Shown here: positions 10,611 to 49,600 of the stretch, in pieces | Numbering within the stretch: position 1 is the stretch's first letter | How the letters are laid out: each line of letters begins with the position of its first letter | Assembly: GCA_030248295.1 (NCBI GenBank) | Contig: JASANH010000499.1 | Coordinates: 1-64,000, forward strand | Reading direction: 5' to 3' | Length of the DNA: 64,000 nucleotides | Source: Mesodorylaimus sp. YZB2_4 | Taxonomy: Eukaryota > Nematoda > Enoplea > Dorylaimida > Dorylaimidae | Notes under the pieces: generated by a model | What the model was told of the DNA's origin: nothing | Database searches by the model: none | What the model saw: only the letters and a program-made list of their open reading frames with translations | Made by a program: the position numbers and the translations under genes

Positions 10611-10808
10611 TGTGTATCGGAATGGCTGCGATGTGACGACCTCCCCGTGGTGCAGCTGGAAACTGGTCTCCCCGATCACGCCAACGTCACACAAGAAAGA
10701 ACAGTCGAATACAACGAGCGACGAAAGAGACCACGAACGGGGGCGAACTGCTGAGTAAGCTCCGTTTACTTAGCAGACTAACTTCTTAATGGACTCCTTA
10801 ACTTTCAG

Positions 10809-12241: not shown

Positions 12242-12764
12242 GTAAGACATGAGATTCCGGGCTTTGATTGCTTGCAAGCTACAAGGTTTCTACTGACAAG
12301 TGCAACTTCTGTAACTGTCAGAAGCTGCATAAAACCCTGAAAAACCCAAAATGATAAACGATGCACAATGACAATAATTGCCCCTGCATTCCAATTTTGA
12401 TTGAAGCATAGTCTCAGACTTTCCACCTTCCCAACTTCGACCCCAACGTTTCAATCTGCAAGGTCATACACAAATCTCATATTAGCCTCAAATTTTGTAG
12501 TTTCTTTCTCAAACTGCACAATAGCTTGCCTATTCTTCACAAGCCGGTTTTAGCTTCTGGCTTCTTATTTCGACAAGATGACGAATCTCGTTTCGCCGAC
12601 GTTCGCCTTAGTTCGGCCAATTTGCAGTTGAGGAAATAATCGGTAGATAATCAATAATCGTGTACTCGGTGGGGGCTATAATTGGCATTAGCTAAGGGCC
12701 TCCCCACGTCCCAGTAGGTAGGGTCTCTCCTCTAGCAAGGGGCCCAGGGAGTAGACCATGGATC

Positions 12765-12830
12765 GGGTCGGGTATATTCGGGTCTGGTCAGGTCAGCTAA
12801 ATTTCGGGTCGGGTCGGGTCATTTTTTTGA
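12765..12830. repeat. CGGGT pentamer cluster 1
   Basis: Imperfect tandem copies of CGGGT (gggtcgggt, ttcgggtctggtc, ttcgggtcgggtcgggtc). Similar clusters lie at 10018-10075, 13815-13895 and, as ACCCG, near 18425-18442. Confidence 0.6.
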
Positions 12831-13814
12831 AGGATCGTGGCACACGAGGGTCAAAAATGAAGCAATTCTGCTAGTTTCTACTATTTGCAGTTACAAACAT
12901 TCTTTTCATAGCTGTCCAACTCCAGGATTTGCGGAATTTGCCTCATGCATTTGCATGCATGTAGAGCCCTGCATTACATCGTTTTAATTCTGCGTAACTT
13001 TTAAGAATGTCAGACAAATTGCAAGATGTGACAATGGGCGAATTTTCTGAGTAATTTCTGCGCCAGAAAAGGTCCATATCTCAGAGCTCCTATTAACAGT
13101 CTTAGCAATTCCGATAAATGAGTTGGGACTAGCCATAGTCTGAGGAGGACTTGATAATCTTTGATAACAGGTCGTTAGATTATATACAGTACAGTAACAT
13201 TTGATTCCTGAATGTGACAAGTAAAGTCTCGAGACCTGTCTGGGAAAGCCTGCAATTCAGTCTGAGCCCAAATCACCAATAATTTGCACTAAAAATTGTC
13301 CCCTCGACTACCATTCACGTTACCATTGCGAAACAGTTCGCTGTGTTCAAAAGTCTTAGCACCCTCCACTCCAATAGTAGCAAAGTTCTGACGAGCTCTA
13401 TGACTCGAGCACAATATTATGACTTTGTAAGCCAAAGCTTTTGTGAAGACTGGATGCATACTCTTGGGTGGGTTAATATCTATTTAGGTATTTCTATATT
13501 AAGCCAGTATAGTCTGTCTAATTGCAAAATTTATGCAAGGAAGTCAATATTATTTGGATTGATTGAAGCCTTGCTAAAGACTAGCAGACGGACTTTAGTC
13601 GCTCTTAGATCTACAAAGGTATTTTTCAAATAATTAGACTACTATAGTCGGAAATATGAAGGATGGAAGGTGTACTAGGGATAACAAAACAAGAAAATTC
13701 GGGTGCGTGTAATCAAAACACTTACATCACTTTTCACACAGTCACATTTACAGCAAAGTCACCGCAAGCTCTGAGGATTTGTGCAAGGTTTTTATCGCAA
13801 GGAACTTTGGCTGC

Positions 13815-13895
13815 TAGAGCGAATTCGGGTCAACCAGACCCGGAATTTCGGGTCATCGACTTTCGGGTCGGGTCGGGTTCACCCAACCTGATCCG
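13815..13895. repeat. CGGGT pentamer cluster 2
   Basis: Imperfect CGGGT tandem copies interspersed with inverted GACCCGG, so this short stretch can partly fold on itself. It lies about 1 kb downstream of cluster 1 in the same orientation. Confidence 0.6.
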
Positions 13896-14427
13896 GGGTC
13901 TACCCAGGAGTGTGCAGACCACACGCACTTTCTGGCGCGTGCTCGATCCTCCTCCATTCCTCAAGCTCTCTCCTTTTCGAGTGCCTTGATTTTTAGAATG
14001 TGGTAAAAAAGTAGGCATCATCATTTCGGTGCTGAATGTTTCAAAATCAAAAATCAAACAACATGCAACAAGAGTTCATTCGATTAAATCGAGAGACATT
14101 GAAATACAAAGAAACTGGAAAACAGAAGTCACAAAACTTTTACGTCTGCTATAGTCCTCCTGGATATTCTCTGTCGAGTGCGCTTAGGAACAGAATACCC
14201 GTTAGAGCAAACGAAAAGGAGACATCACGCCAACGCAAAGAGAGTTATTCTGCCTGAGAACGCAGAGATAACGTCTGCCATTATTCCAATTGTTCATAAA
14301 CCAGTTTTCACCTTCTTTTTCGTTCTCCATTATTCCATCGCTCGCAACTATGATAAGAGTATTTCTATAAGTTAGTACTGCGCAGTTGCCTTACCTTCTT
14401 TCGACGACCTGAAATAGTGTATAAAAA

Positions 14428-14631
14428 ATGAATGGCACCTTTGGCTGCGTATTTTTTGTTTTATTTTCGCTATATCTTTCTACGAACTGCGATTGTCCTG
14501 ATGATCTTGCAGATCAGAAAATATCCTGTCGCCCTGGAAAAGCTATTTCGAATTTAGAGTGGACTGGAAACCAAGGAAGCTGCAAAGAAATTAAAGTTCA
14601 GTGCCAAAATGCAACCAGTAGTTGTACAGAG
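14428..14631 (+). CDS. First exon of a candidate secreted Cys-rich protein (partial)
   Basis: The ATG at 14428 opens a 68-codon frame with a clear signal peptide (hydrophobic GCVFFVLFSLYLS, cleavage likely near residue 20). A mature segment with seven cysteines follows, and an Asn-Ala-Thr glycosylation site is present. The frame ends at a strong donor (GAG|gtgagt) in phase 0. 'gtataaaaaatg' immediately precedes the start. I could not place the next exon. The Cys-rich exons at 21.7-22.7 kb are in the right orientation, but the first begins in phase 2, so direct splicing is not possible unless another exon lies between. A family A MITE sits just inside the putative intron. Confidence 0.5.
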
Positions 14632-14689
14632 GTGAGTCTAGTTCAGTTGTCAGTGGATTTATTGGTTCACGGTTTTCGCGGGCACCGAA

Positions 14690-14880
14690 ACCTGGCCAGT
14701 GCAACCAAGCCTGCCAAGCGCAGGAGAGAATGGAACTTCGACTGGAGCAAGGCAAGTCTTGCGACTATAATTGCGGCTGAAACAACAACTCGAGGGGTTG
14801 ACTCATCCCTGCCAGGGGTGCGCGATAATTTCCTCCCAATCGCCACGACCCGCCAGGCTCAGGGTTATTCCACCTCGGGC
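14690..14880. mobile_element. MITE family A, copy 3 (diverged)
   Basis: This shares 'caaccaagcctgcca' at the left, 'caagtcttgcgactata' and 'ctgccaggggtgcgcg' inside, and 'cgccaggctcagggtta' at the right with the copies at 1161 and 2469. It is more diverged, and no target duplication is visible. Confidence 0.6.
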
Positions 14881-16844
14881 CAGGACAAATGACGACCAAG
14901 CTCCATAGACTAAGCCCCACTAGATTTCCAAGCGGTTTAACTTGTCGCATATCAGCAGTCATGATGGCACGAGTAAGCCATGAGATATCTCTGTTGTCTC
15001 CAGCCAGTTATCTGAAGCAACATCTGTCGGGGTACTGGCAGCAGAACCCAATCAAGGACCTCCCAGCTATGCAGTGCTCGAGGGCTAGTTTACCGAGTTT
15101 TTCATTTTGTTTTAGCGCTTGACGGTACTGGTTGAGTCACCCATGGTCTGATGCGCAAGGCCAACGAGGGGTACAGTTTTTGAAAAACGATCCTTGCTCC
15201 GGGTGTCTGCTTATCATTACTTCGGGATTGTGCAGGCTCTGTCTTCTGTATGTACAAAAGTAGAGGCAAAGGTATCCAAGCGGACCCAGAACCACTGCTC
15301 CACTGTCAGCTGACGTGGTGCTCATGTCGACCCGGCGTGTCTGTTCTGCTGTACTAGCTCTGGCTTCTCAGGGCTAGAGCCCTGATCTTTCAGAAGTCAC
15401 ATTGGCTTTAGTTTTCAGTCAGCTAGACTGGACTGGTTTGAGAGAGGGATCAAGTCAAGTCTTAATTACTCTTCTCTGAAAACAGCAAGGGGAGCAGCGT
15501 GGTGTTATTTGCGATAGGTACCACAGTTTTGAAGACCCAAGCAATTCCGTTGGTCTCAAAGACTATACGATCTTTCCTATCTTCCTGTTTGACATGTCTG
15601 ACACGATGACTGACAATGACTGCCTCAATAGGCACCGTCAAATAAACTCCATATACCCTTAGGGACAGCAGAAAACTTGAACTGGTGAGCATCTTGCTCC
15701 CATACTTTGTTAGCTTGCTTGACCCTATCATGGCTTAGATCGTTATCCGAAAGCATATTTTACCCATTGTTCAAGCAAGTGGGGGCAAGGTCAGGGGTAT
15801 GGTATACTTTTAAATATTCCTACTCCGGATGTGTAGAATATAGTTTCAGAAGAATAGTCGACGTCAGAATCTTCTTTTCTCGCTGCAACTGCTTGTGAGT
15901 CGCGAATTTTTTTCTCATCAAGTACTAACCTGTAAAATTGTATGAACTGTGCTCGTTCTGCGCCTCATAGCCATACTTTTGAGTGCTTTTCATAACAATA
16001 ACAAACATCAAACGGTCGAGCATGCTGTAAATCGGAGCACACAATGACGGGCAGGATGTCATGTGGCGAATGTCACGACTATTCGAAAGTGACATTTATC
16101 TGCATGTTTGTCAATACCACCAAGCATTTTCTCGACCTACCTTGAGTAAGCTACTTTCAATCAAGTCAAACACAACAACTTGCTGAGGATGCAATCTCTT
16201 GCACGCCTACATGCTCCTCTTTCTCGCGCGAAGAATGCGCCATGCGCCCCCTCCCCATATTTGGCATTTCTAAGCGACGATGGTATCATGATTTGCGACT
16301 TTCCGGTCTGCATTTACCTGTGGGAGGTTTTCTGTTTAAAAATGGATATAGAGTTACCATCATTGCTGGGCGTCGAAGTTTTCTTGCCATTTTTCTTCGT
16401 GACGTTTAGGTGAAAACATAAAAATCAATCAATGGTGTGCCTATGCGCCTATGAAAGTTTCGAATAGGGTGTTTTTCTGGCGAGTAAACCAGGAGGCGTT
16501 ATTGAACTATTAAGTTGAAAAAAGACTAGTTGCTCCAGTTTGGATGATTCTCGCGAACTTGACGAACAGGGCGTAAAGCCTAAGCTTGTGAGCGAAGAAT
16601 GGCTTTGACTGAACAGCTTTTAAGCAAAGTACTGCATGATTTTACAGACAGGACTCAGGACCATGTATCTAAAACCAATGTCCATTCTTGACAGGCAAGC
16701 CAATCTTTAAGTTGATCATAAAATTACAAAATACTCTAAAAATTCGAAGCATACAGTACCATATTCAAGGCTCTCCTCCGGAATACGTGTAGATACGTGG
16801 GGTGTTCTAAAAGTTCTTGCAACTGGCATATAAATGACAACGAA
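14881..16844. other. Repeat-derived intergenic or intronic DNA
   Basis: A short fragment of SINE family B (about 15125-15175, gagtcacccatggtctgatgcgcaaggccaacgaggg) is recognisable. I see no convincing exon. If 14428 and 21662 belong to one gene, this would be intron. Confidence 0.35.
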
Positions 16845-24545: not shown

Positions 24546-26412
24546 CAATTCGGTTTTCACGTTGGCTGCAGCAAAAATGCCACTTGAGAAATCATTGGCT
24601 GCGAGTATAGGTGTGATCCCGGCGGGGATTTTCGCACGATGCCCACCCAATTTCTGATTCTGAGAATTCCATCATGGTTCCACAGTGGATCCATGTATCC
24701 GCTGGCGCGACGCCTCGTGGATCCACATGGAAATACATGGATCCACAGGGACTTATCATGACAGGACCATTTTTCCCTCAGCGTTGACCTCTTGCCTTCG
24801 CTGCTCGCATTGTGATCATGGTTACTGATTGGCACTCGTTGCGAGCATGTGACTGATCCGAGCAAAACTCGCGATGCTTACTGTTTCGAAGGAACGTGCC
24901 TCTTCACCACTCCCGCTGACTCATCGATCATGACATTCGACGAATGCATTGCGAAGAAAACCATGAACGGAAAACAAATGTGATTTAATGCTGACACTAG
25001 CCTGAATTACTATATTCATTCTGCTCGTCCATTTTCAGCGAGTTCTGTGTTCAATGGCTGTATAAAGACTACCGACTGCGGTGAGATTGGATGTAGCGAG
25101 ACTGACAACCTGACGACAGCTCCTCCCGCAGGATTGGTGATCGGTGAAACAGGAATCATTTTTAGCGTTAGCATTTGCGGCAAAACTACATTTCCTTTTT
25201 TTGGCATTGATCCATGGCACCATTCTTGTTATCGATTTCCCTAGATACAAAATCGACGAACTGTAAAAAGACTTTCCGATGAAGAAAATCTAACGTCAAT
25301 CTCGCGAAAGCTTGCAAATGAAGTTACTGTCCTTGCGTCGACTCGCGTTGCACTAAGGCGAACGGTCCGTTGACAGCTCCTAGTGTTACAAGACTTGTTT
25401 CGGGAGCACTGGCACGTCTACGAGCAGTTTGGATACAAGTGAAGGGTCTCATTGAGCGCTGATGCGGTGTCCCTGCTTTTCGCGCAAAAAAATTAAAATT
25501 TGAGCGAAAACGCAGGGGCCTGTACTGTATCTATCGATTCGAAAAATCGATTTTGATGCTGCTGTCTAAAATTTTGATCCAAGTGGTAACTGATGCTTTT
25601 TATCGCTTCGATGAAAATTTAACAGTCAAAATTTTGATTCGAGCGCGATTTCAATCTGTTTTCCTTATTTTCCAAGCCTAGTTTTCAATCCTCAAGAACT
25701 CATTCTATGATGCTCAGCTCATTTGCCATAGTTGATTAGTTGATCATGTTGTGCGACTCGAGCAATTGATTCATCATTGTGATCAGTCACTCCGATCCGT
25801 CTGATCACTTTTATCAGTCGAATGGGTGATCGATTAATCAATCTTTGATTGCTTTACTCATCAGTATGATTGGCTGATCGATGATGCGCATCTCATATTG
25901 TGGACACAGCCTTCTGGTCATCAATTCTGTCTTGATAGCTCCCAAAAAAGAGTATTTTACTTGGGCCCTGATATAAACCACCTATTGTGGCTCCAATATA
26001 ATCGTCCTATATGCTCCGAGATAATATTTTCAATAGGCGTGCAAAAATTACTCGCCTTCTCACCTACGCGAAAATCGTTCAGTTAGATAATTCCTTTTTA
26101 TTCACTGCCGCGACTGTCACCATGGCTGGCTCGAACGACCGACTAAGAATAGTTTAACTCGGCTTTTAACTCCCTTGATCGACATACCAATTTCATTGCT
26201 CAATAACGTTCTCCCATTTGCGCTGTTGGAACTGATTGGATCTGAACTGAACGACGAGAAATGACCATTTTCGTATCCCTTGACAACGAAACTCGTTAGG
26301 CTTTTGCTGATTGATGTAACCATGACTAGTTGAAATTCACTTTGGCGGATGTGTTCATGAAAGACTGTCAGAGGTTTTCCAACCATGTCTCGAATTTGAG
26401 GCCTGTATCAAA
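24546..26412. other. Intergenic, weak exon-like Cys-rich stretches
   Basis: Two Cys-containing open stretches (about 24825-24975, with RCEHVTDPSKTRDAYCFEGTC; and 25040-25242 after 'cattttcag', with NGCIKTTDCGEIGC) look mildly coding but have no consistent splice partners. 25690-25880 is rich in TGATC/GATCGAT words. The right end must hold the promoter of the channel gene at 26413. Confidence 0.3.
24680..24765. repeat. Inverted repeats around GTGGATCCA
   Basis: GTGGATCCATGTATCC is followed by GTGGATCCACATGG and by ACATGGATCCAC. The three copies in both orientations can form alternative hairpins. Confidence 0.5.
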
Positions 26413-29400
26413 ATGGTATTCGGTAGCTGCATAGTGGTTCCAAACGAGAACGAAGTAGACGTGTATGACGATGATGATGAGGAAGAAGACAAGGATCCGC
26501 CCATGGCTTCCCTTGGAATTGGCGATGGGGAAGGATGGACATTGGATATACTGTTCAACTACGTCCACAGGGGCAGCATAATTTGGAAGGCGGCCTGGTG
26601 GTTGACGGATGTGGCCATGTTTACTGCTTGTACTTATTACGTGGTAATAGCAGTGATCGCATTCATACTTCCAGAGACCTTTACTAGCACTCGAGTAAAC
26701 TCAATTTTCTTATTTCTCTTTCGCAAATCCCTGCACTTGACTCTATTCCAGATGCAAGAACCGGCCATCAGGTTCCCAACAGTCACTATTTGCAATATAA
26801 ATCCATACAAATTAAAAGCGATAGAACAGTTTGCAATGGGCATGCTTGATGAGGTGAGGGGCTGGACGAGATATTACCTGGGTGTCTGCATTCTTATTTA
26901 CAGGACGAAACAGCGACTGCGACACAGCCCGATGCGGGTGAAATGCAAGATACTAGAAAGGGGAGTCCAGTTGACCAGCCATTGAATATTCCGAGCCGAA
27001 TCCCCATGACAGTACCTTTAAAAAGCGAAGACAACGCACACTCTGCATTTTCAAGCCGTTTTCTGTCAACTTCTTCTTTTGGTAGCATCCCTATTCGAAG
27101 CAGTGCGGCAACAAAATTAGCCATAGCGCCAGAAGAATCCACTGCTCAAAGCCGCCTATATAAATCTACCCATCCTGAATCAGGCAGTCGCTCTGCGAGA
27201 GATTCCACAAGTTCCATTCAAAGCCAAACAGTTTATGAGCTCAGGTCTGAAAGCAGCAGCGGGCAAGGAAACCCACATGAAAATCAGCCAGCAGCAATTT
27301 ATTATTATAACCCAGTCGGTGGTGAAGAAATACTGCACACCTCCCACGATCCAGGACACCTGACTTCTACAGTCCAGACTCTTGCTGCGACCAGTGGTTT
27401 TACTAACTCGACCAGCACCATTGATCCTGAGCTTTCAATATCTAGTACTAGGTCTAGACATATAGAGACAGGTTCACATACATCATCAACAGAGGTTGTA
27501 ACACCAACTCACACACCTTCAATGCACCCTGCATACAGAGAAAGTGCATCGCAGCAGGAGACAGCCCACTGGACCGCGCCAAATGAATCTGTCAGATCTA
27601 CCATAACCCAGGCATCGGCAGCTACTGCTGACAATGCGCTAGTATTATCATCAGCGTCGCCTCCATCATCAACTAAAGCAAACCACAATAAATCGGCCGA
27701 TCATACCAAGTTTGGCATTGATATACTCGAGCCAGAGGTCACATCGACTTCTACATCTTTCGACTCGAGTTTCCAGCAAACAGTCGAAATATATGACACC
27801 ATTGATTCACCTGCTGGAATACAACATGTTAAACCCCACAGGCGCCGCAGACCGAAGCGACAATCAGGCATGACAATTTTACTTGTTTATTGCACATTTC
27901 ATAGTAACTCTCAACTGTAAATTTATCGCAGGATGTTCTCAACCAGGTTGGAGTTCAGCTAGCAATTTCTGCTATTTCCAATACCCTGAGACAATGAACG
28001 ACACTTTTGAGAACGTGGGCCAGAAATGCTCGAGCACTGGGAGCAGTTTGCCAGTGTTTGATGATATATCTGACTCTAATCCTGACTATGCGGCGTTCAA
28101 AGCTTGGGTCAAGTATGAAAGCATCGTTTCTGCTCACATAAGCTGGCACCTTCTCTTGTAGGAATATGAACTTGTACGTATCATTTTATTATGTCGTTGT
28201 GGGGATGAAAAAAGCCAGTCCAACATCGTTAGTTAGATATGATACGAATACTGAAGTCGCTGGAGTTAACTGGCCTTTCAATTATGATTACCCAAAGGCA
28301 TCTGCCGAATGTGTGGCCCTAGTCAACCGAAAACTTTCAACTTCTAAAACTACGTATGATAATTTATATGGATACGATTGCAATGCATCCAAGTTTCCTC
28401 TGACCATAGTATGCCAAATGCCTATTATACGTAAGTCAGTGATTCTGTTGCAGAGGCAGCTTACGATTAGTGAAAGACTTTTGCGTAGGAACTACAACTG
28501 GAATGAGCTCTTTCACAAAAGTAACATCATCTTCCCTTCTCACAACTACTGCAACGACCACTTCAACAAGCTCATCGCTACCCTCAACCACATCGAACTC
28601 AACAGTGTCGACGACGTCTTCCACGACGTCTTTTATGGAGACGACAACGACGAAGTCGACCACATCATCCTCAACTACATCAGCATTTATCTCTTCAACC
28701 ATTACAACTACTGCAAGCACCTCAAGCCCATCTACACCATCAGCCACACCCACATTAATAGTGTCGACTATGTCTTCCTCGACATCGACGGAGACGACAA
28801 CAATGATATCCACTACATCATCCTCATCTTCATTGGCATCCATTTCTTCAATCATTCCCACGGCTACCGCAACGAGAACAAGCTCATCGCATTCTGCAAC
28901 CACACCCACATCAACAGTGTCAACTGCCTCTCATATGGCATCAATGACAACGACGAAACCAACTACATCATCCACAACTTTAATGATCACAAGCTCCTTG
29001 CCATCATTAACCACCACATCGACAGTTTCGACTTCACCTACTACGCCGATAGCAACTACGAAGTCCACTACACTATCCGCAACTTCAACAGAACCCCCAT
29101 TTTTTACGACTCCTGCAACTACTGTAACCGCCATTACTAGTTCCACTCTACTTCCATCAGCAGGACCAAGCTCTTTATCTTCCCCTAAAATTACAACACG
29201 AGTCGCCAATACAAACGCAACCTTTCAATCTACTAGCTCAACGTTTCCTACTACGACTAGACATTTAACTTCAACAACATCCTTGGTACCCTCAACAACA
29301 TCGACACAAGCCCTGGTGACAACTTCGTCAAACCACGAGACCACAAGGTCCACTAGCTCAACAGCAACCTCCCCATCGTCGGTTCCAACAACAACCCTGA

Positions 29401-32400
29401 AAACTATAATCAGCTCCTCGCAAGCCTCCGCGCCCACTTCAACATCCACCTCTACCACTACAGTTTCATTGGCGACTACTACATCAGTACCTGTGACCAT
29501 AAAGTCAACCGCGGGACCAAGCTTGAGTGGGTTGGCATCAACTTTCTCTTCTTCCCTTCCTGTAACAAAGCTGACAACCACTTCCGAACCAATGACCACA
29601 AAGACGTCATTTTCATCCAGCACATCATCATTCGTTCCCTCCACTGCTGATACAAGTGAGATGACAACTCCAGTTAGACCCTCTCTACCTTCCACCACGC
29701 ACCTGCTGAGTTCCACAACTGCGACGCCCATGACTACAAAATCGACTTTTCTCTCCAGCAGCTCATCAGCATCAACATTATCATCTACTACAGCGGCAAC
29801 TCTAACAGCCACTGAGGGTTCTTCGACAACTTTATCAACATCGTCTTCATCCTCTTCTTCAACCACTGCGACAGCAAAAAGTACATCGGAACTCCTGACC
29901 ACGAAACCAACTAGCTCAGCAGTAGACCTGTCCACGTTCATTTCCACCACAGATACGAGTACTCGTAAAATAACGTCAACAGGCCCCACGCCATCATCAG
30001 CAAGCCCGAGGTCGACTAGAGTCACAACGCCAGTGGCGCCTTCGTCAGCACACCTATCCACAGAACCAGCTCTTACATCAGCTAGATCACCCATCATCAC
30101 ACCGTCGAGCGACATGCCATCATTTTCATCCATAGAGCAATCATCACCTTCTGGGCATTCCCCGTCATCCATGGCATTGCATGTGACCACCCACGGCCTG
30201 AGCACTCCAACGGTAGCGCCCATCATCCCATCCTCACCAGTGCCGCCTCCATCGACGACAGCATCGACATCATTCGTGATATCCACACCCTCGCCTCTAT
30301 CTACCACCATGTCGGCCAAGGCCAGCACGTGGTCGCCATCCCCGCCTACAGACGTTACCTCTAAAAAACCAACTTGGGCACCTGCTGGATCTTCACCCGC
30401 TATCTCAGATCCAGTGGAAAGTCTCGCATCGTCTACTCCATCATCACGGTCTGAGACTGAAGCAACTCCACAACCAACGAAATTCCTACAAAGCATTTAC
30501 AAAGCTCCAGTGGACAAAGCTGTCTACGAGTTTCTAGACTACCTGGCTATAAGTAAGGATCCTTGCGTGGAGGGCCTAAACCTCTGTCACAGCGTTATAT
30601 GCTTCAACCGCCAAAGTTTTCAGAAGCGGGTAATCAAAATTTATCAGTTTTGTGTCTAATCGAAAAAATACGATACAGTGAGCTACCAAATTCATCCTGG
30701 TAAACTCTACCAAATTTCTGTCTTGTGCCAGTACAGTAGTTGAACTTAAAACGCCTATGCTCGTTCCCCAAGCCTAAAAACAGTTTCCAGGAATTTTTGC
30801 AAGACTTATCAGTCGGACGGTTCAGAATCATGAATTTAAGTATTTGCGCGTCACTTGTTTTAGGAAAGTGAGACTGTTCCCTGAGTCATGGAAGATGATT
30901 GAAAAACACGTATAAAAAGAAGATTTTTTAAGTTGGTTCTATATGAATGGTTAGGTAACATTTTTGTGTTGCAATAATTACTGTGCAACTAACCTTGCCT
31001 TCAAGCATTGAAAAGTGAGGTGGTTTGTGGCAGTAACAAAGATCCCACCCACTTTGCCATTTGTTAATTTTTCTGATTTTACAGCTGTGCAATCGTTTTT
31101 TGCAGTTTCTAATATAACCAAAGCGCAACTGATCGCAGATTTAGGATTAGAAGTAAGTCTTTCTTATTTTTTTTTTTGTCTTCTCACCTCGGATGTTTTA
31201 CTTCATTAGACTATGTCTGATGATACAGCGAAGATGGCGGCGATAAATGCGGCATTACCATTCATCCTGGCCGATTTGCCAGTGGAATTAAGAGAGAGCT
31301 TGGGTTATGACGATGTGCATGACCTGATTTTATTATGCTCGTTTTTGACGAAAGATTGCATGAAGTGAGTGACAATGGCTGTCTCGCTCAATGACCATGA
31401 TCCGCCCAAGTCCCGCAAGACACTCTTAAAATTTTTTAGAGACCTGTACAAATGGTATTCGAGCTCGATCGGCAATTGTTATTCCTTTAATCACGTTGAA
31501 TACGAGGAAAAAACCCTATATAAGTCCGGCCCAATTCAAGGTAAGAGCATGTCAATGTTAGGCTTTTCTTATTCATTCATGTTATTTGCCAAAATACTCA
31601 AAAAGTGAAATCGTTTTGGCGAGGTGCTGTGAAAATATTCAAGCTGTAAAAAACCAAAATAACAGAATGATATACTTCTCGGAAGTATTCTGGAATAATG
31701 AGACGAGACAGTATCTCCTGGCGAGCTGTCCCAATAATTTTTCTGAATATAAAAAATCTTGTTTACACGTATCTATGCACTGCCCATAATTGGATCTCTA
31801 TAACAGTTGCCCCTTGCATTTGTAACCAGGGCTCCGAATTTACTTTAATACACGGACAAGCACTTACATTCCCACCACTCAATCTGCTGGCGTCATGGTT
31901 TTAATTTCGGATCGTGCTTTGCCATTGTTGCCATCGATCAATGGTCGCATTGCATCTCCTGGTCTCGTCACATCAATTGCTCAGGAATACGTAAGCGAGG
32001 CCTCGATTGGCATTGCACTGTTTTAAGAGGACCCAGTCTTAAAACGCACCCTGCCAATTTCCCTGCCATGTGGTCTGTGGTGGACAGACCTTTACAAGTA
32101 GACTATACCTTGCCTCGCGAATAATTGTGGGACGACAAAATTAAGTGGACGTAGGGCGATCATCTGTTCCACCAGCATGGCAGAAAATCTTGGCCTAGAT
32201 CTGTTTTGTTCAGACTTTCCGGCAAACGAGGTCACCAGGAAATATATTTCTAACCATAATTTTCTGTAATAAACTAAAATCTGGCAGCACCATGTAAAAA
32301 CGAAGTGGGCTTCACAAAGTGAAGGTGCATCTTGAAGTGGATGTGAGCACGATCCAGAATGTGCGCTGATCGCCAAAGTATGTGCTTGGTGTTACCTTTC

Positions 32401-33777
32401 ATAAAATTTTAATGCAGAAGTTCCTTAACCCTCTCCATGTGAGTGAAGTGAATGACAATACCAGCCATTGTATGTTTCAGCAAGAATACGAAAGAATAGT
32501 CAATTGCTTCGATGGGAGTGAAAACATTGGGCAGGGAGCCGAAGAAAAATATTCGGCAGATGTAAGTATGATAACATGGTATTTTTAACACCATTATTTT
32601 CTGAAATGATTCTGATAATTTGCAAATTGCTTTCAGGCATGCTGGCAAAACTGCTTTCAAAATTTGGCTGTAGCATCATGCAAATGCATCGATCCGAGCC
32701 AAGATATCAACGCCAGCATACCCGCTCCTTTATGCACTTTCAAACAAAGTAAGTTTAAGGATCTGTGTGTGTCCTAATCGGAAGCTTCGAGTACTGTACA
32801 GTATACTCCACATTGGTAACCTGATCGTGAGTGCAATGTTCGTCTTGTGAAGGGGGTCCGGTAAAACTGATTAATTCTAGTAAATACCCTGGGCGGAAAA
32901 ATATTCAAGCTTCTTGAAGGCTTGGAGTTCGTGAGTAACACTTGACAACCACTACTGAAGAAGCGTGAGAAAAACAATGTTTCCAAAGCCTGTTCCTGCA
33001 CTGGAAACGAAGCATTCATTCAAACTTCAGACCAGATCAAACTTTTACACGAATTATTTGTTGTTTAGAACACTGTATCGATCGCCTGTTGATGACGCAA
33101 TGGAAGAGTTTGTCCAACTGCACCTGTTTGGATTCATGCCAAAGTCGAATTTATGATACAGTCGAGAGCCATTTACGAGTGTTCTCCAGAGGAGTAGGCC
33201 AGCAGTAACTGCGTTTACAGCGATTTTCACAAGGCGGATTGCATGATTTCAGGGGTATTTCTCCACGAGTAATTCAGTAGTCAACAGTACGAGCGTGAGA
33301 CCGTAAGTGCGTGCAAAAGTCGCATAAAATTAAGATCTGCTATTTGTGTCTTCACGAGTGGCACAAATAGCAGGACATAATACATGCAGGATATGAGGGA
33401 TGTCCTCATCAGGTATCAGACCAGTGACAGTGTACACATGGTCCTCTCTGTCCTTCGGTTACCATGCCTAGTGATGTTTCGAAATCTAAACTTACTGACC
33501 TTAAATGACTTGCTTTAGGCAAGATGTCGGAGTCCTTGAAGTCTATGCTTACGAGTGGCGATACGTTCTTTATTCCGAGGCGTTGGTGCCATCCGTAAGT
33601 TCCAGCTTCCAGTTCTCACAGTTCTGAATCGTTCAATCACTTGCACTGTAGCTGGAAGACCTCATATCCGAACTGGCGAATCAAGTGGGATTATGGTTGG
33701 GCTTTGGAGCCTTCTCCATCATTGAATTGCTAGTTTTGCCATATTTTATCGCCAAACGGAAACGTCGCAGGCAATAA
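26413..33777 (+). CDS. DEG/ENaC-family channel with C-type lectin and mucin-like insert
   Basis: Sixteen exons give 1,632 residues. Start ATG 26413; an acidic N-tail (DDDDEEED) precedes TM1 (about residues 67-87). FPTVTICNINPYK (102-114) is the family's hallmark first palm strand. Next come a 320-residue Ser/Thr-rich segment, RRRRPKR (441-447), a C-type lectin domain (451-599) and a mucin-like segment (600 to about 1265). Family sequence then resumes with LILLCSFLTKDC, GNCYSFNH, LRIYFNTRTSTYIPTT, the Cys-rich block ACWQNCFQNLAVASCKC, and CTCLDSC....Y. TM2 with GLWLGFGAFSIIEL (from 1604) precedes an 8-residue basic tail. DEG/ENaC proteins form trimeric sodium-permeable channels gated by force, peptides or protons. 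The insert suggests a ligand-tethered or matrix-tethered channel (inference). Oddities: HRG where the gating motif is HG, and GFG where the selectivity filter is usually G-x-S. Confidence 0.88.
27932..28430 (+). other. C-type lectin domain encoded by two exons
   Basis: The domain opens CSQPGW and continues with FCYF, VGQKC, AFKAWV, YVVVGMKK (the WIGL-like strand), NWP, AECVAL, YDCN and VCQM. The six cysteines sit as in long-form C-type lectin domains. The EPN/QPD calcium-sugar motif is absent and the WND motif is degenerate, so calcium-dependent sugar binding is doubtful and protein or other ligand binding is possible. Confidence 0.8.
28489..30480 (+). other. Mucin-like Ser/Thr-rich domain (about 660 residues)
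   Basis: One long exon encodes runs of Thr and Ser with Pro, Ala and Val (TTTATTTSTSSSLPSTTS style) and almost no Cys, Trp or aromatic residues. Heavy O-glycosylation and an extended rod-like shape are expected. Long antisense open frames across this exon are by-products of its skewed codons. Confidence 0.85.
33337..33373. repeat. Perfect 12-bp-stem hairpin in a channel intron
   Basis: CTGCTATTTGTG (33337-33348) and CACAAATAGCAG (33362-33373) flank a 13-base loop inside the intron between exons 14 and 15. Confidence 0.7.
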
Positions 33778-33874
33778 TCCCAAACTGATATGATATTCTG
33801 AATCATGAAGTCTTTATATCATCACATCGCAATTCAAAGCTGCGGGCAATTTGTCCGAAAACTGTCGCTGTCGC

Positions 33875-33880
33875 AATAAA
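33875..33880 (+). terminator. Poly(A) signal of the channel gene
   Basis: AATAAA about 100 bases after the stop, followed by a GT-rich stretch (gtgtgttattcttgggtctttgtgtcg). This is the classical layout of a cleavage and polyadenylation site. Confidence 0.6.
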
Positions 33881-34048
33881 AGTGTGTTATTCTTGGGTCT
33901 TTGTGTCGAAAAGTTTCTCAGCATGTCAAAGATTTGGTTCATGTGTAGTGGGGGTGTCAAGGGATGATCAGGGTTGCTTGTAAAATAGGCCACTAGTGTA
34001 GACTGCACGGGGTTCTAGACGAACAGAAGGAGACTTATGACAACGACG

Positions 34049-34769
34049 TCAAGTAGTAAGCTGGTGGGATATGACGTGACGAGATGTATCGGGAGACCAG
34101 GAAAGAGACCGCCGTAAAAGACGCCGATACGTGATTATCGCTGACAGTGAGTCAAATAATCGAACCACCCAATAATTCAGACATGTCTCACGTTCAAGCT
34201 CGCGCGAAACTCGAATTGACATTTCCTCTGCATGCACTGACAAAACAGGCTGCGCAAAGAACATCCCGTGATGGCCCAAATTAGAATCACGTTATCTGAA
34301 TAATCACCCTCAATATTTCAGCGTTTTAAATGCTCACGATCATGGACCAAACTGTGATGAAAAGAATTTGGTATAATAAACCCTTAGGTGAAGCTTTACT
34401 TCACTTTTCACTTCACTTTTTCAGTTAGCTTACAACGATTGCACTCGCAGCATAGAGTAGAGTTTTATCGATATCGATATAAGAGTTAATCATAATGCAG
34501 GCTGGGACAGAGAAACATAAAGTATCCAGCCAATACGCCGGACTTAAAGAAAGCTCCAGCACACAAATAAACACAGTGCTAAATGTAGTAAAAAATTGGC
34601 TTATCACATCACTGGTTAATCGATGACCATTCTGACCATTCATGAACACCTGCTCAGGTGTAGATGAAACTTTGCGAATACAGTAGTGCTCCTTTGTCTC
34701 TCCACTTTGACACTTTGGCACTTTAGCACAATTTTTCGATACCGGGAAAACCTCTTTTACACTACTCAT
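34049..34769 (-). CDS. Candidate two-exon membrane protein, unidentified
   Basis: Minus-strand exons 34769-34434 (ATG in the context aacaATG; donor GTT|gtaagc, phase 0) and 34249-34049 (acceptor gcgcag) give 178 residues and a stop. Residues 50-110 are strongly hydrophobic (DVISQFFTTFSTVFICVLEL; then TLCFSVPACIMI and LLYAASAIV), suggesting two or three membrane segments. The second exon is basic (YRRLLRRSLS). It converges on the channel gene. I recognise no family. The splice sites are good, but the whole could be chance. Confidence 0.35.
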
Positions 34770-36028
34770 TGTTTTACTTTATACAACATTCTTGTCAGTC
34801 GGACATGATAGTACTATTATAACAGCATATCCATATTCAGTTTCAATTTGCCATTCTTGTGCCACCTGTGGTAAATTTTAGTGTGACAGTTTGAAATAGG
34901 GTGGGTTCTTGGGATGACATGGATAGCCTACATCACGCCCATCACTCATTTGATGGTACTGTAATTGTCACTCATATTTCTCAAAGGAGCATGGTTTTGG
35001 TGCCACATTGAACGATATCCACCCACAGTCAGGGCGAACTGAATCAAGTAGTCAAGCGCCAAGCATGAGGTCACACGCATGCGTAAGACGTTTGTGTGAG
35101 TGTGTGACTGAACACGTCATAAAAGCTCTTATTACAGAGCAAATTTAGGCATGTCGAGGCCCCAAGGCAGGTATTGTTGCAGGGGGGAGTACCGATGTAC
35201 AGTAAATGGTTTGAATACCAGCAAAGCGTTTTTGCCCAAGTTATACAAACGGATCGGTTTGTCCTACCGAATTCCGCTGTGCAAAGTATTTTACATCGCT
35301 TACAATATTCACGATCATCCATAGCGTACAGCGTGCAGGTGCAAGTTCTATGAAAACCTGAATTTATTTGTGTCGTCGAGTTTTTCTAAGCATCAATACA
35401 TCTCTTTCACTGACGATGAGACGAGGCGACAAGGCCGACTTCCCCCAAACAGCTGTCTCCAACCTGGTCGACGGAGGGTGTGTACACAGCACCTTGCTCG
35501 TCCCGCCTGTTTCCTGTACTCGCACCCAGTTGGATTGTGAAAGGCGAGGCAGATTTTCTTCTGTTGAGATATTTGCGCTGCTGGTGCGCACCCCTCCCTG
35601 CCTGCGCACACATCAATGTATGCGGGGGGGGCAGCCTAGACACACGTTGCCAGTAGTCTTCCGTTGCAACCAGCCGATCGAAGAGAAAGCGTTTTGCCGC
35701 GTTCTCTATGGCTGGCTGGCCTGTTTGGAAAGGGGGTTGCCTAAATGTAGCGTCATCATCCTCCTAGTCTCGTCTTCGTCATTTCAAAACGGCACGCTGA
35801 CGTTGCTCATCGTCAGTGCATCGAGTCGCAGTGAAATAGTCATTCATATATTCTAGATACTTTGCATTTGGCGCCAAGAAATTTTAGAGTGAAATTTTTT
35901 TCGTCGAAGTTAAAGACATAGAAATTTTGGAAAACGATTGAAACTCTTATGCGAATACATTCAATTGTCCGTTAGTGAATTATAATTTGAACGAATTTCT
36001 TTGTACTCGATTCGAATAATCGAAACAA
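34770..36028. other. Intergenic / promoter region of the 36029 exon
   Basis: A 162-codon open frame at 35368-35856 overlaps equally long minus-strand frames and has no family resemblance, so I leave it uncalled. No repeat family copy was recognised. Confidence 0.35.
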
Positions 36029-36266
36029 ATGGACCGTTCATTAGGGCGCGGAAGCCGCAGTGGTGGCGGCGGTAATGCTAATCAACCGCCGCCCTCTGTG
36101 CCCCGTCTGCCCGTGACTAATATAAGTGGTCATCAAAGAATTGTCCTACCCACTTCCGGTCTCTCTCAAACTGCCAGTGGGGCTATGTCCAGCGAAGTTG
36201 AAGATCTTTCCAAAATCACTTTTGAAGAAGGAAAAGAAATCATGGAAACATTCAATATTTTGAAAA
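36029..36266 (+). CDS. Candidate start exon (alternative nesprin first exon?)
   Basis: The ATG at 36029 (context cgaaacaaATGG) opens a 79-codon frame ending at AAA A|gtaagc in phase 1. The product begins with a Gly/Ser/Arg-rich stretch (SLGRGSRSGGGG), then NQPPPSVPRLPV and an acidic helix (EVEDLSKITFEEGKEIMETF). The nesprin CH1 exon at 45230 starts in the matching phase, so this could be an upstream alternative first exon. It could equally be exon 1 of a separate gene whose later exons I did not find between 36.3 and 40.6 kb. Confidence 0.4.
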
Positions 36267-37782
36267 GTAAGCAAAAAAGGGTTTGAGTTTTTGATTCAGC
36301 GACCGTTTTGCTTAATTTAATTAACCACAAAATGCGATTTAATAAAGTCAAATTAGTCTCTTCGCCCTTTTGTCGGCTCAGTCTTCCAAGTCGTGATGGA
36401 CGATGTATGGCCTGTTCTTTGACTTCTTCTGTCAAACGGGTAGTTCTAGAATGTTGAGCTAAAACTGATAGCTGCCCTCTCATTTTCTTGGAGAGAAGGT
36501 TCAAGTTTTTTTGGATGGTAGTAGAGAAGAGCGGAGGTAAAACGGAACTTCAACAAGCTGGCTTTTGGAATCAAGGCAGTTGTCTTCAGTCGACATTGAG
36601 ATTCGAATAAATTGGACCTGCCCTCGACGTAAGAGTGGTCGAGGGCGGTTCTGTCGTTTTTAATGTGTAGACATGGTTAAAAACAGCGCAGACTCTAGAA
36701 AGCTGGTTTTTCGAGTGAGTGCGAAGCTTTGAGTGGTCTGGTAGAAATGCTAGCTAATGTTTTTGAGATGTCTGATATCCGAGCCTATGCGCCTACTTTG
36801 GTTTTGCTAATATCATTGGTTACGCAGACACTGATGAGGGTCCATTCGCATCAACACCAATAGCGAGCGGCCTGATTCGCTGAAAAACCTTCTTTACTTT
36901 GCATTTTCCTGCAAGGCGGCATGATGTGTTTCGACTGTACGACATTAGAAACAGCTCTTGCAAAACCAGCATTTGCAGTTTTAACTTATCAATGCCAGAC
37001 TATTGCTGCCTCTGGAAGTCGGCACACCCAATGCAAATTTCTGGCTCCCTGCCACCATTCTAGGCGGCAGCAAAACATTTCTGATAGCTCCAACAGCAAC
37101 AGAAAAATTCCTTTTTGGCTGGCAGTGCGATGTAAGCATTGATGATTCAACATACGATCAGTAATAATTCATGGATGGTCATTGGATCCAGTGATGTGCA
37201 AGGATTGCGCAATGGCTTGACACGTCAGCAGCACTGAAAACCTAGACTTTCTTGTTGCTCCCCTGGACTGACTCACGATCAGTTTGGAAAAACAATTGTT
37301 GAGTTACCGCGTAGGATTGGCAGCCTTAGCATTAGACACGAGGCCTTCTTTGAGGTTTTTGTAGTCAGCAACGTGTCTGTGCCGCCGGTTCAAAAACTTA
37401 AGTGAAGTAACTTTAAAACATGCAAAAACCTCCGTGATGCTGTTTTATTATAATGGCAGTAAAAGCCCGGAAGAACTCAGTGATTGATGCTGGCATTACT
37501 ACATATAAGCCGTATGGAACCATTAACAGTTAGATAAATGCAACAAATGTACAGCCACTCAGCTTAATTGTATTATCAGTCGATGCCATATTTGCGAAGT
37601 CGAGCTGCACCTGTGTTGTCTATCATCAATCGCTGCAGTTGTGTCCACAGCTAACAGACTGGAACTGTCCTTGTGCCATTGGCTTTTGGCATAGACAAGA
37701 AAATGCAATTTTTCTGGGTATCGATTATTAATGTTGTAAACTGCATGTTGGCAGTGATAATTTTATTCATGGCGTCAACGAT

Positions 37783-43600: not shown

Positions 43601-46600
43601 GAGTCGATCCATAAGCTTACATCAGCTGATGACAAATAACTTAGTCAAAAATGATCGTGAAAGGATTTTATTAAAATATCATTTCATCACTATTACTTTG
43701 GACTATCAAACATATTGGACGTGTCAGACTTTGTAACATTTCAGAAATCTCGAATATAAAATTCTTTTCGCAACGAGATTTCAACATTTTTATCCAAAAA
43801 ATTTTCAAGCATTGCGCATTCACTATTGGATTTAAAAAATTAGAATTTTTCAATTGGAACGATGTCAAAATGCTGTGCTTGTCCGTGCTTCCATCCATTA
43901 GCCAAGCGTAAAAGTAAGGCGAGGAAATGAGGTGTCGTGCGTGCTACTACTTTCTTATCAATTGGAAAACAGCAGTTATTTCGGGCGGGGTCTTCTCCTG
44001 GGCTCACAGAGTTGATAAGACTAGCCATGTGCTAAATTTTATGGGTTCTGTGCAGCCGTTTTCAAATCGATGCTTATTGCTTGAGACGCTTTACAATGGG
44101 TTTTTATGGCTTTCACCCATTCCGCAGGATTTTTAGCGGGCAGCACTGGTTTTTGAAGAAGTTTCACCATTACCGCTGCTTTACACTCTATTAATGTCAT
44201 CATGTTTTCTTCGCATTCTCTAAATCGATATCTAGTGCAGTGCGTGGGAGCAACTTAAATGCCGCGGCTTGAAGAACACACGACTTAGACGCCCGGTTGC
44301 TAATGTTCTACAGTAAATGTCAGTTCACAAAGGTGGGGTCCATTATCCTTTCCCCATTGATTTTCTTTCCCCTTTTGAAATTTTTCTTTAGCAGTCAATA
44401 AAAATGCTGGTTTATAAGTTTTTCAAGTCCCAGATCATGTCTTTATCTTCTAACCTTCATCAGATCGAATTAGGATTGATGGCGAGTTTATATGTTGGCT
44501 CAGCTAAGATTTCTCATCGCAGTCACTGACTGTCCAGGCGCAAAGAGGCCTGATGCATTTAGTTGCCGTCTAGGCAGGCATCGAATTAATGCGATTTCCG
44601 CTCCCTCATAAATGCACATCAAAAGGACCCGACCAAGGCGTGCTTCGGCAGTCAGCTCCGTGCCAACAAATAGCGCGTATTTCCTCCGCATCATCCGGAC
44701 AACATTCGTGCCTTAAAAGGACATTTTTAATGTGAGGCAGAAAATGAAGAAATAGATTTTGGCACGAGGCACAACAACATAGTGTGCGCATCCGTGAGAT
44801 TTGGCCTCTTACAGCCAAGAGTACCCTTCATATAGTACTAGAACCTGTTTCGCACGAGGGTGGTACTACACTAGAAGAAAGTGTGTCGTGTCGTGGTGCA
44901 AGTTTTGTAATATTACTCGCAGCTCATACTTGGTTAGTTGACTGACAAGTTCGTAGGTGGCACCATATTTGTGTCGGCCAAGTACTTTTTCTTCGTCTTT
45001 CCACAGACTGACAGGAACGTAGTATAAGTCTAAACAATAGAATTTTTGTGAGGTTTATGTATCGAAATTATTATGAACGTGGATGTTATTGTACTAAAAA
45101 GAGAAGTAAGCTCCAATTTGGGCTACGGAGAGAGTGGCTAGGACAGGCAGGAAACAAATGTTTGTTTAGTTTTTGCCAAAATCGCTCGATTTAAAAGGCA
45201 ATCTTTCTGAGTGATGCTTGTCATTTCAGATGAACACGAGAAAATTCAAAAACGGACTTTTACGAAATGGGTGAATTCTCACTTAGCTCATGTAAGTAAT
45301 GCATTTGAATTGTTGCCGCTGTCCAAGTCTGTGTCTGGAACTTCGATGCCAGCCTCTATTTGCTAAGCTGTGGGCGAATCTTTGCAGCAGCATTTTTTTG
45401 CTCGATTGTACTGCTGATCGAAAAATCTCTTCAAATCTTTGGCTCAGTTTTCTTCAGCGAACATTTGAAAGTCATGCTTTTGCGCAAGGATTTATCATTC
45501 ATTTTCCTAAGAAAGCGAAAATTGAATTTTGGCTTGCCAAAATCACTGTCAAAGCGCATACCACTTTGCTGTTGCAATTTTGTGCATCTGCAACTCTGAA
45601 TCATAGCGTCACTTTGATACTGACCAGGGAATACATACCGTATCTGTATGATTTTAGCATGAATCAGCAACAGAAATCGATGATTTATACGAAGATATCA
45701 AGGATGGTATTCGGTTGTGCTATTTGTTGGAGGTTTTATCCGGTGAAAAATTGGTAAGCAGACGAGTCCTGATTCTTGACGTGTGTGTGTGACAGAGTGA
45801 ACGTCTTTGAGTGATTGCTGCTCAAAATTCCAGTGACTTTTCTAAAGTACATTTTCGCCGTCTTTTTTAGCTTGTGAGCCGAGGTCGGCGACTAAATCGA
45901 GTTCATCACGAAAGCAACATACGCACAGCTTTGACATTTTTGCAAAAGCGAGGAGTAAGTTGGTGCGAGTTAAGATGAAGAAAAGTTTGCAAGTTCTCAA
46001 CCACATGTCATCACATGTCAATCAAAATTCTGTCTTCTGCCTCTGACCCTGCTGGTGTGGTTTTAGGTTCGACTGATCAATAACAATGTCAGCGATATTG
46101 CTGATGGAAAACCAACGATCGTACTTGGATTGATTTGGCAAATTATTTTGCATTTTCAAGTACTTACCCAAATACTTTCGAATTTCCCGCTTTTTTGTTA
46201 TTGTGCTCTATTTTGAAATGTACTTAATTTTGTGCAGATCGAATCCAATGCGGAGTTACTTCACGATTGGGGTCTTACTGTTGGTGCATCAACCGCGGCC
46301 AGCAGTACGAGTAGTTTGGATTCGGTTGGGCTGGTCAGCCCGGGCGGAGTTGCCATTCGATCTGGTCCAGCCACCCCGACATCCAAGCAAGCACGATTCC
46401 GACCATCGGCCAATAGCGGTAATGGAACATCGACCGGAGCTTCGGCCACATCAGCTCAAGCGGGAAAAGCTGGAGCGAAAAAGTTGCTGCTGGCCTGGGT
46501 GAAGAAAGTGATCAGCGAGTAAGAGGCAGTTGATTGAGGATGAATTGTGTTTTTGCATCTCCTTTTCCAGCAAATATGGCATCGCTGTCAAGGATTTCGG

Positions 46601-49600
46601 AGCCAGCTGGCGAGATGGTGTTTTGTTCAACGCCATGGTACATACGGTTAGACCGGACTTGATCGATATGGATCGTGTCAGGCAGACATCACGTCCTGGT
46701 GCGGCCAGAGAGAATCTACAACAAGCCTTCAATGTAGCTTTCGAGCAATTGGGCATTCCAAGATTGTTGGATCCTGAAGGTAAATTTGTCATTTTTAAAA
46801 TATTTCTAATGCAAATTTTTTGTTTTTCAGATGTTCTGGTTGATCAGCCAGATGAAAAATCGATTGTCACTTACGTTGCGCAGTTTATCAAAAAATATCC
46901 ATCGCCCAAGTGCGCCAAGGTAAGTCATTAGATTCGATACACTGGCGATTCTGTGACTTTTGAGTCTAAAGAGATGTCATGCCATACGTTATTCACAGCC
47001 AAGCACTATACAGCGCACTCGAGGGCTAAGGAACACATATTTGACAACCATTTTTCACCGAGGCGGGAGTCGAACCCTCTCCTGTAAATGCGCACCCAGC
47101 GTGACAGGCAGTCGGCTTAACCGCTAGGCCACGATCTGGTGTCAGAAGTCACGACAAGCAATTTAGACTTTCTTCTTCTCCTCCCCTCGAACGAGTTTAG
47201 CATCCAGTGCTATGAGAATTTGCTGGTGAATCTGCCTGGATATCACCGTGAAACTTTTCTTTCAGCTCCAATACACCGTTTCGCAAGCCTTGGAGATGGC
47301 GAAGGAGGAACGCGCAAAATACGAGCAGCTGACATCTTGGCTGAATGTAGCCAATAAAATGGTGTCCGAGAAATTGGAGCATCCATCAAAAGACTTTTAT
47401 TCCGAATTTCAAGTATGTCATTGGTTTTGTAGTTTTCTTAGGTTTCTAACTTTAATTTCATCTTTGTAGCACCTTCTGGTCATTCGACGCGAGTATTTAG
47501 AGTACATCGAGATTTACAAGTATTTCTTTGAAAGATGGCGAACTGGCGCAGCATTGACTTTGACCGAGGAGACGTGGACTTCGTTGGATGAATCGTGGCG
47601 AAGATTCAGTTCAAATTTGACTGACTGGAATCATCGATTGGAAGAGAATTTACCGGGTCGGCTAAGAATGATCTATTTGTGGTTGGAACAAGCGGAAATT
47701 TTGTTAAAAGAGCCTTCACCCCAAATGCATAAAATAACTGAGGATACTGAGAATGTTGGAGAAAAGTACGGGTCGATGGTGGTCGAATTAGAGGATGCTT
47801 TATCCAGATTGCGGGTAAGGCCCACATGGAATTTCCGTTTCGGCAGCTTACTTGTCTGTCTTTCACCCGCCGCAACCGTTTTCCCTAGCTTTTTGAGCCT
47901 AGAAGTGTGAATGCTTGCGCAGAGTAGTGCAGCCGAGTCAAACAGTGATTCATGCAACATAAGTGTAAAGGCAAGATATTTCAAAAATTTTCTTTCCTGG
48001 GTTGGAGTTGAACTCGCATCTTTTATGACTCAGTTGATGTTGTACCATTTACACCAGCCAACTCTCCACGCAACCTGTTGTCTTTATTCCTGCATCACCT
48101 AAGCTAAATAATTATGTACTACAAGATAACGGCCGTTCTTCCCTGTTTTAGGCGCACTTCGCTGAGTACAGTACGGTGTACAGCGATTTCTGCGATGTCT
48201 ATCGTTCGAGACGGGTCTCCAAATCACACTTACGCGATGGCAGCCTGGAAAGTTTGGGTGAAGCTGAGCAAGTGCTTCTTGAATCCATCGAGGAGATACC
48301 GGGCGAATTTCTCGAACCATTAGCATTGCGGTTCCAAGCAGCCGCTGAGAATGAAGCTAATCGAAGAAGATATTTGGAATATTTGGTAGCAAAATACAAG
48401 TTTTTGGAACGGGTTTATCGATTGAAGGAAAGATTGATCATTTGGAGGCGATTACCCGATTGCGTTATTACATTGAAGGAGATATGCGAGCAGATGGAAA
48501 AAGAAACGTCGATAATTTTGACAAAACAGGCGGGAAAGGCGTCAGTGGACGCTTGCAAACAATTACTGCCCCATGTTATAGCGAATGGTAAGTACAATCA
48601 GTGATGTTGCATTAACTTATGCTTGAGGATATTGTCTGATCGAGGGTCAATTTCTGGCTGTCTTCGAGGTGATGACATGACAGGGTTGATGTGATGCGAT
48701 CGATATGGCTGACTATCGATCTGTTATTGTTGACGGACATATAATTGTCAGTTCTGTGATTATTGATCGATCGATCGGCTAATCGAATGATCGATGCACA
48801 TCATGTGCGTGACTGACAATCGATTGGCTCGCATACCAAACACATAATCGGTTAATTAATTGTCATAGATAGTGCACAATCAGCATGATTGATTTTGATA
48901 TGAGCAATCTGATTTTTAAGTGACTGTCTTCATCAGTCCAACACAGATCGAACAGGATCAATTTTTTCCGACCATCATTAGGATTCATCACTGAACACCA
49001 TCATTCCCTTGAACACAGACTTGTCATATTCAAATCGCACTGACCCACTTTCTGTTTTCAGTTGACGAATCCATTGAAGAAAAATTACTGGACGAAACCT
49101 TATCGCAATCCGATCAATTTCGGGCTGAATTCGATCAGCTTCACCGTCGTTTGCCCATCCTTTACTCCAACTGGATGGAAGTTATTGAATTACACGCTTC
49201 CCTGAACAAATGGTTGAACGAGGCCTTGACTCGTGTCCTCAAGGAGAGAAGACAATTCGGTGTGGTGCAGCGTGAAATGCGCGATATGTGGGAGGCACGG
49301 TATCGACGATACGAGGAATTAGTGCAGTCAGTCTTGACGCAGATTGGTGCCAGACCCGCGGAGTTGGTCAAAAATGAGAGGCAAGAGATCAAGCGGAAAT
49401 GGGACCAGCTGAAAGCTAAGGTAAAAGAAAGATTAGCTTTAGCCAAGAGTAGAATGCATCAGCACTGCTAGACTGCATATATTAAAATCAGCGGGGGGGG
49501 GGGGTAGTTTTCCACGCGTCAGCCTATTATATCTGAGTGACTTACATTCAATAGCAGGGGTGGTCGGTCACGACTGAGCTAACACGAATTACGCATGAAA

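Follow-up and report, generated by a model that had tools for sequence, protein, structure and literature searches.

The closest described relatives of the protein considered here are found among the DEG/ENaC channels. How these channels get pulled open is an open question, and extracellular tethers are little known (PMC7958617); tethers between DEG/ENaC channels and the matrix have been postulated and are scarcely known, lectins being named as possible force transmitters (PMC7958617; PMC10148893). For the MEC-4 touch channel complex, likewise built on a nematode DEG/ENaC channel, an extracellular tether has been postulated (PMC10148893), formed by separate matrix proteins such as MEC-5. The nematode channels EGAS-1 to EGAS-4 carry an extra extracellular EGF module, which makes the addition of a module to a nematode DEG/ENaC channel a known theme. 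In the alpha and gamma subunits of vertebrate ENaC, an extra tract with a furin-type site follows the region behind the first transmembrane segment (TM1) and precedes the conserved finger helices; this GRIP domain is described as a short β-strand domain that is cleaved at two sites and contains an inhibitory tract (PMC8791634; PMC6197857), and as unique to ENaC (PMC8791634). The locus we describe lies at positions 26413-33777 of a 64,000-nucleotide stretch of the nematode Mesodorylaimus sp. YZB2_4 (assembly GCA_030248295.1, contig JASANH010000499.1, positions 1 to 64,000; hereafter the window, part of contig C51 of the 145 Mb, 1067-contig assembly that was searched). That assembly gives 133 matches to Col_cuticle_N, a cuticle-collagen family typical of nematodes, against none in 14 control genomes. 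The locus appears to be a single gene coding for a single DEG/ENaC subunit that carries a lectin-like domain and a mucin-like rod, a reading that is well supported. It would differ from EGAS in the nature of the added modules, from ENaC by an insert of more than 1100 residues with one furin-type site, and from the MEC-4 complex by a tether within the subunit. The polycystin-1 family is more remote, having an unrelated membrane part, another mode of cleavage and no DEG/ENaC core.

The gene model comprises 16 phase-matched exons on the + strand and encodes 1631 amino acids with a single stop at the end. In protein order, TM1 is followed by a Ser-rich segment, a six-cysteine lectin-like domain, a rod of 662 residues, the remainder of the DEG/ENaC ectodomain and the second transmembrane segment (TM2). 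The exons were joined by means of splice signals and phase, and the model was then corrected by eye against a copy of the gene on contig C10. The first model had 17 exons; the comparison moved the start of one exon and the end of another, and a 21-nt exon was dropped after no counterpart was seen for it in C10 or in a further copy, C537b. Intron 3 is the one GC-AG intron of the model, its GC donor at 27868 being replaced by GT at the equivalent place of the C10 copy; the other introns are all GT-AG. The Pfam and channel-part genome searches used the earlier model, in which exon 7 had its first start, exon 13 was short and the 21-nt exon was present, and the solved-structure search of the channel part a model with exon 7 alone corrected, which affects few residues in either case. 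The features are as follows.

26413..26694, + strand: exon 1, start codon, acidic N-terminus and TM1 (residues 64-91 hydrophobic); C10 copy 67% identical over 91 codons
26752..26853, + strand: exon 2, FPTVTICNINPYK, the DEG/ENaC post-TM1 signature
26904..27867, + strand: exon 3, Ser/Thr-rich, 321 residues, S+T 30%, ending in RRRRPKR-QS and followed by the GC donor
27849..27860, + strand: RPKR codons, furin-type motif, residues 444-447, followed by QS; motif present in all five loci with a lectin-like domain
27932..28112, + strand: exon 4, first of the lectin-like exon pair
28162..28430, + strand: exon 5, second of the lectin-like exon pair
28489..30552, + strand: exon 6, mucin-like rod, then the beginning of the finger region (TKFLQSIYKAPV...)
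31106..31152, + strand: exon 7, finger region; start placed at the second acceptor after comparison with C10
31210..31364, + strand: exon 8, finger region
31440..31540, + strand: exon 9, GNCYSFN signature
31830..31990, + strand: exon 10, ectodomain core, 94% identical in C10
32418..32438, + strand: doubtful 21-nt exon (KFLNPLH), outside the 16-exon model, unmatched in C10 and C537b
32481..32561, + strand: exon 11 of the 16-exon model
32637..32748, + strand: exon 12, cysteine-rich, ACWQNCFQN..CKC
33069..33193, + strand: exon 13, end shifted after comparison with C10 (exon 14 of the 17-exon model)
33253..33302, + strand: exon 14, GYFSTSNS..., also present in C10
33519..33594, + strand: exon 15
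33652..33777, + strand: exon 16, TM2, Gly-Phe-Gly at the place of the GAS belt, basic tail and stop
33875..33880, + strand: AATAAA, poly(A)-signal-like, 98 bases past the stop

This model bears out, in order and in phase, what the first-pass annotation had proposed from the letters alone: TM1 and FPTVTICN, a Ser/Thr segment, a six-cysteine domain, a mucin-like exon and the remaining channel. Its count of sixteen exons also agrees, as a number, once the 21-nt exon is left aside. Only TM1 and TM2 exceed a 19-residue hydropathy mean of 1.6 in the 1631 residues (no signal-peptide predictor was run ahead of the middle part), so that the protein has the topology of a DEG/ENaC subunit, with two membrane stretches and one large loop. 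The Pfam model ASC (PF00858, cut-off 23.6 bits) matches on either side of the insert, with 33.6 bits before it (model positions 11-104) and 143.2 bits after it (136-454), in agreement with the earlier statement that neither half is a complete channel. When the channel part without the insert was compared with the sequences of solved structures, 25 distinct sequences were obtained at E ≤0.001, all of them ENaC, ASIC or FMRFamide-gated channels by name. The introns that flank the lectin-like exon pair and the rod exon are in phase 1 on both sides, a usual mark of shuffled extracellular modules; transcripts that skip the exon pair or the rod exon would therefore stay in frame.

Four further loci of the same genome, found by searches with the channel part, the module and the TM1 part and by reading of the DNA, show the order TM1, module, rod and rest of the channel on a single strand:

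C10, 1252137 to 1242724: lectin-like module 74% identical to that of the window
C537b, 36508 to 25875, - strand: module 23% identical
C612, 10161 to 1602: module 26% identical
C537a, 875 to 15049: module 28% identical

Intron places and phases match across the loci wherever the junctions were read by eye. Since four more genes of this genome are built alike, the design looks real, chance is disfavoured and a mis-joining of neighbouring genes appears very unlikely; the architecture, taken alone, is in our judgement nearly certain. The idea of one DEG/ENaC subunit with lectin-like and mucin-like parts is well supported by the four paralogous loci. Between the window and C10, the ratio of nonsynonymous to synonymous substitution rates (dN/dS) is about 0.12 for the TM1 part (125 codons), 0.06 for the module (147) and 0.05 for the C-terminal part of the channel (323), with a proportion of synonymous differences of 0.63-0.73; these 595 codons in 13 segments do not include exons 3, 7 and 14, the rod or the 21-nt exon. 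For C537b and C612, compared over 124 codons of the module only, the ratio is about 0.13 (dN 0.30, dS 2.31). All these ratios are rough because dS is saturated in every comparison. The lectin-like module is under purifying selection.

The insert was read in seven loci of the subfamily, the window included, and in all seven it holds a long Ser/Thr-rich open frame with an S+T content of 29-55% (C537a by eye only), the module being found in five of the seven. In the two others, the more distant members C233 (40900-49400) and C15 (1079345-1092400), the Ser/Thr-rich frames of 2087 and 1669 residues occupy the same slot; no exon 1 was recognised at either. The rod may predate the head. Further possible members of the subfamily (for example on C11, C1, C114, C387 and C89) stand outside this count of seven, and at eight other places, where open frames of at least 110 residues were read by eye (one of them limited to 10,000 bases) and no CTLD search was made, the order was not seen.

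The module, which starts at residue 450, displays the six cysteines of the long form of the C-type lectin-like domain (CTLD), together with its G-W and LPxF landmarks. Five of the cysteine columns are invariant in the five copies, and the first cysteine is present in all of them, one residue later in three; the C537a copy has two additional cysteines. The Pfam model Lectin_C stays below its cut-off, the window copy scoring 16.3-16.4 bits against 22.6, with a match at E ≤10, itself below the threshold, in that single copy of the five. On the same copy the unrelated model GMC_oxred_C_1st scores 15.9 bits (E 0.012, cut-off 27), and in one other copy CBM49 is matched below its threshold (E 0.0039). 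A profile of the five copies matches 18 solved sequences at E ≤1, all of them, to judge by their names, CTLD proteins, the best E of 0.00023 being summed over several weak domains and the best single-domain independent E-value being 0.003. Comparison of this profile with five ordinary CTLDs of the genome gave 95.1% over 75 columns, in the N-terminal half only, and the window module alone yields four solved sequences at E ≤10, three CTLDs (best 0.0073) and one cytidylyltransferase (1.5). The two profile comparisons give the assignment of a CTLD fold fair support.

At the end of the segment that precedes the module, the five copies share an RxKR motif followed by Gln: RPKR in the window, RQKR in C10, RNKR in C612, REKR in C537b and RKKR in C537a. 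In the last three loci further R-x-K/R-R matches exist (several in C537a), and the one retained lies in an open frame with Gln and a phase-1 donor behind it; for C537a and C537b, where the exon concerned is 3 to 5 kb ahead of the module, its position within the gene is presumed. When exon 3 of the window was shuffled 20,000 times, 0.18% of the sequences had an R-x-K/R-R motif among their last 12 residues. The motif has been kept while the rest drifted, because exon 3 as a whole is 26% identical to C10 (79/306). R-x-K/R-R motifs, unassigned to exons, also occur in the C233 and C15 loci.

The rod, 662 residues long with S 27.5%, T 27.9% (S+T 55%), P 9% and no cysteine, has the long Ser/Thr/Pro-rich composition of a mucin-like segment. 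A recent expansion of repeats was considered as its origin and set aside, no tandem repeat being reported inside 26413-33777 at score 50. The rod frame of C537b (25875-36508, - strand) opens, unlike that of the window, with many near-identical short units (TSSGPPSSASSILTST-like, by eye).

Human gamma-ENaC, the best solved relative of the channel part, is aligned over residues 71-133 (17.9 bits, independent E-value 0.011, weak) and 237-552 (40.6 bits), residues 134-236 being left unaligned, and the entry point of the insert falls against residues 120-123. GRIP sits between the finger helices alpha1 and alpha2, and finger and thumb are described as major players in gating (PMC6197857). The insert would thus be placed at or beside the protease-cut GRIP slot of ENaC, the first gamma-ENaC stretch being weak and the exact place uncertain; we make no claim that it descends from GRIP. 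This proximity, the conserved furin-type site and the altered pore motifs discussed below had all escaped the first-pass annotation.

The model we consider most likely combines these elements in a single gene product that would be receptor, tether and channel at once. The finger region would be enlarged, at or beside the place of GRIP, by the Ser-rich segment, the furin-type site, the lectin-like module and the mucin-like rod. During secretion, a proprotein convertase would cut after RPKR and generate two chains, presumably held together by the folded ectodomain, so that the chain bearing TM2 would then have the lectin-like head at its start, on top of a rod that rises from the finger. A fully glycosylated rod measures 0.2-0.25 nm per residue, which would give the one considered here an estimated length of about 130-165 nm. 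If the matrix, the cuticle or an adjacent cell bound or pulled the head, the effect would reach the finger and alter the opening of the channel; the rod would additionally hold the head clear of the cell coat. The channel-pulling tether put forward by the first-pass annotation would suit an insert placed near the finger. We consider that the architecture together with a tethering, contact-sensing or tension-sensing role in this broad sense stands at about an even chance, the role being deduced. The more specific version, a family of self-tethered channels including the furin cut, in which a pull on the head opens or closes the channel and the length of the rod varies from member to member, is tentative and rather improbable in all its details.

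Several observations weigh against this model. No module was detected in C15 and C233 by tblastn with four CTLD queries, which a much diverged module might escape, the only matches falling in stretches of low complexity or with stop codons (best E 0.017 and 0.006). None of the five domains has the Ca2+/sugar motifs (EPN/QPD, WND) at the site, the QPN of C537b adjoining the third cysteine and the EPS of C537a lying in the N-terminal part, both away from it; with Lectin_C below its cut-off as well, sugar binding is therefore not to be assumed, and the ligand-catching lectin is the weaker part of the first-pass annotation. The entry point lies about 12-15 residues ahead of the gamma-ENaC furin site, which ends at R138 (PMC8791634), and thus off it, in a weak alignment. 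Activation of ENaC is described as needing two cuts within a single subunit (PMC8791634), whereas the furin-type motif scan of the window protein gave one extracellular cluster, sites of other proteases being outside its scope. The rod is 662 residues long in the window and 1575 in C10, a spread as much in keeping with a spacer as with a force-bearing tether. Finally, the canonical pore motifs His-Gly and GAS, which are typical of DEG/ENaC channels and which we do not count as defining, are absent: the His-Gly before TM1 is missing in the five copies (by eye), with Trp-Thr-Leu-Asp there instead, and the GAS belt reads GFG in the window and C10 and GFS in the other three. GAS is described as highly conserved and as interacting with the HG motif, thereby stabilising the pore (PMC10424705). 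Conduction may be poor or altered here, or may require partners; with such altered motifs, ordinary Na+ conduction is not to be assumed.

The alternative that survives best is that the insert acts as nothing more than a coat or spacer: the rod would shield the channel or set its distance to the cuticle or matrix, the module would serve adhesion or sorting, and neither would take part in gating. The wide variation in rod length agrees with this explanation, as do C15 and C233, whose Ser/Thr-rich inserts at the equivalent place suggest that a headless rod can exist; yet the insert appears rooted near the finger, a major gating player (PMC6197857), and the furin-type site is kept in the five copies. 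We regard it as a possible explanation, less probable than the broad sensing role and slightly more so than the detailed self-tethered model.

Less plausible still, and in our view unlikely, is a regulatory and weakly conducting subunit that would join heteromers and control its partners, the insert being the regulatory part. Such a subunit would account for the pore changes just described, and 19 C. elegans constructs listed in PMC10424705, including all four EGAS, give no significant current alone in oocytes. Against this, purifying selection acts on TM1, TM2 and the ectodomain core, and a missing oocyte current can have other causes.

It is highly improbable that the model fuses three genes, namely a short one for TM1, one for lectin and mucin and one for the channel: three poly(A)-signal-like hexamers do occur inside the model (ATTAAA at 26811 in exon 2, AATAAA at 27687 in exon 3 and AATAAA at 32268 in an intron), which contradicts the first-pass annotation on this point, but neither half is a complete channel, the middle part has no hydrophobic stretch at the threshold used, and the four other loci have the same order with equal intron places and phases where read by eye.

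A self-tethered DEG/ENaC subunit, if confirmed, would mean that the place beside the slot of vertebrate ENaC protease control took up other modules in a nematode. With a built-in head and rod in five copies whose rods differ, the effects of tether length, head binding and protease cutting would become testable on single cDNAs. Among the open-literature papers listed by our searches, which did not extend to subscription journals, to protein databases or to the genomes of other nematodes, we found no report of a DEG/ENaC channel combined with a C-type lectin-like module and a mucin-like rod; the protein may already be annotated somewhere. One candidate, PMC8144518, holds both "degenerin" and "C-type lectin", and was rejected because the passages concerned name two separate proteins.

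The DEG/ENaC family seems large in this genome, with ASC matches at 114 or more places (pieces rather than genes), many of them in one long open frame; the family has 30 members in C. elegans (PMC10424705). Pfam CTLDs were found at 90 places, against the 114 of ASC, and by eye two of these CTLDs precede, by at most 15 kb, an ASC match that shares their strand: C1:2480163 before C1:2487133 (2480163-2488275, + strand) and C24:685206 before C24:677444 (677444-685565, - strand). The distance is about 7 kb in both pairs, which may be neighbours or other fusions.

Elsewhere in the window, a series of long open frames occupies 46512-62900 on the + strand. The first contains a calponin-homology domain (Pfam CH, 64.7 bits), the later ones look coiled-coil-like by eye, and one has no Pfam match over its first 260 residues; together they would perhaps code for a giant protein of the nesprin or plakin type, a name that is guessed. 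On the - strand, a frame of 400 residues at 6576-7775 has an F-box match of 24.7 bits (cut-off 20.5; first 260 residues scanned).

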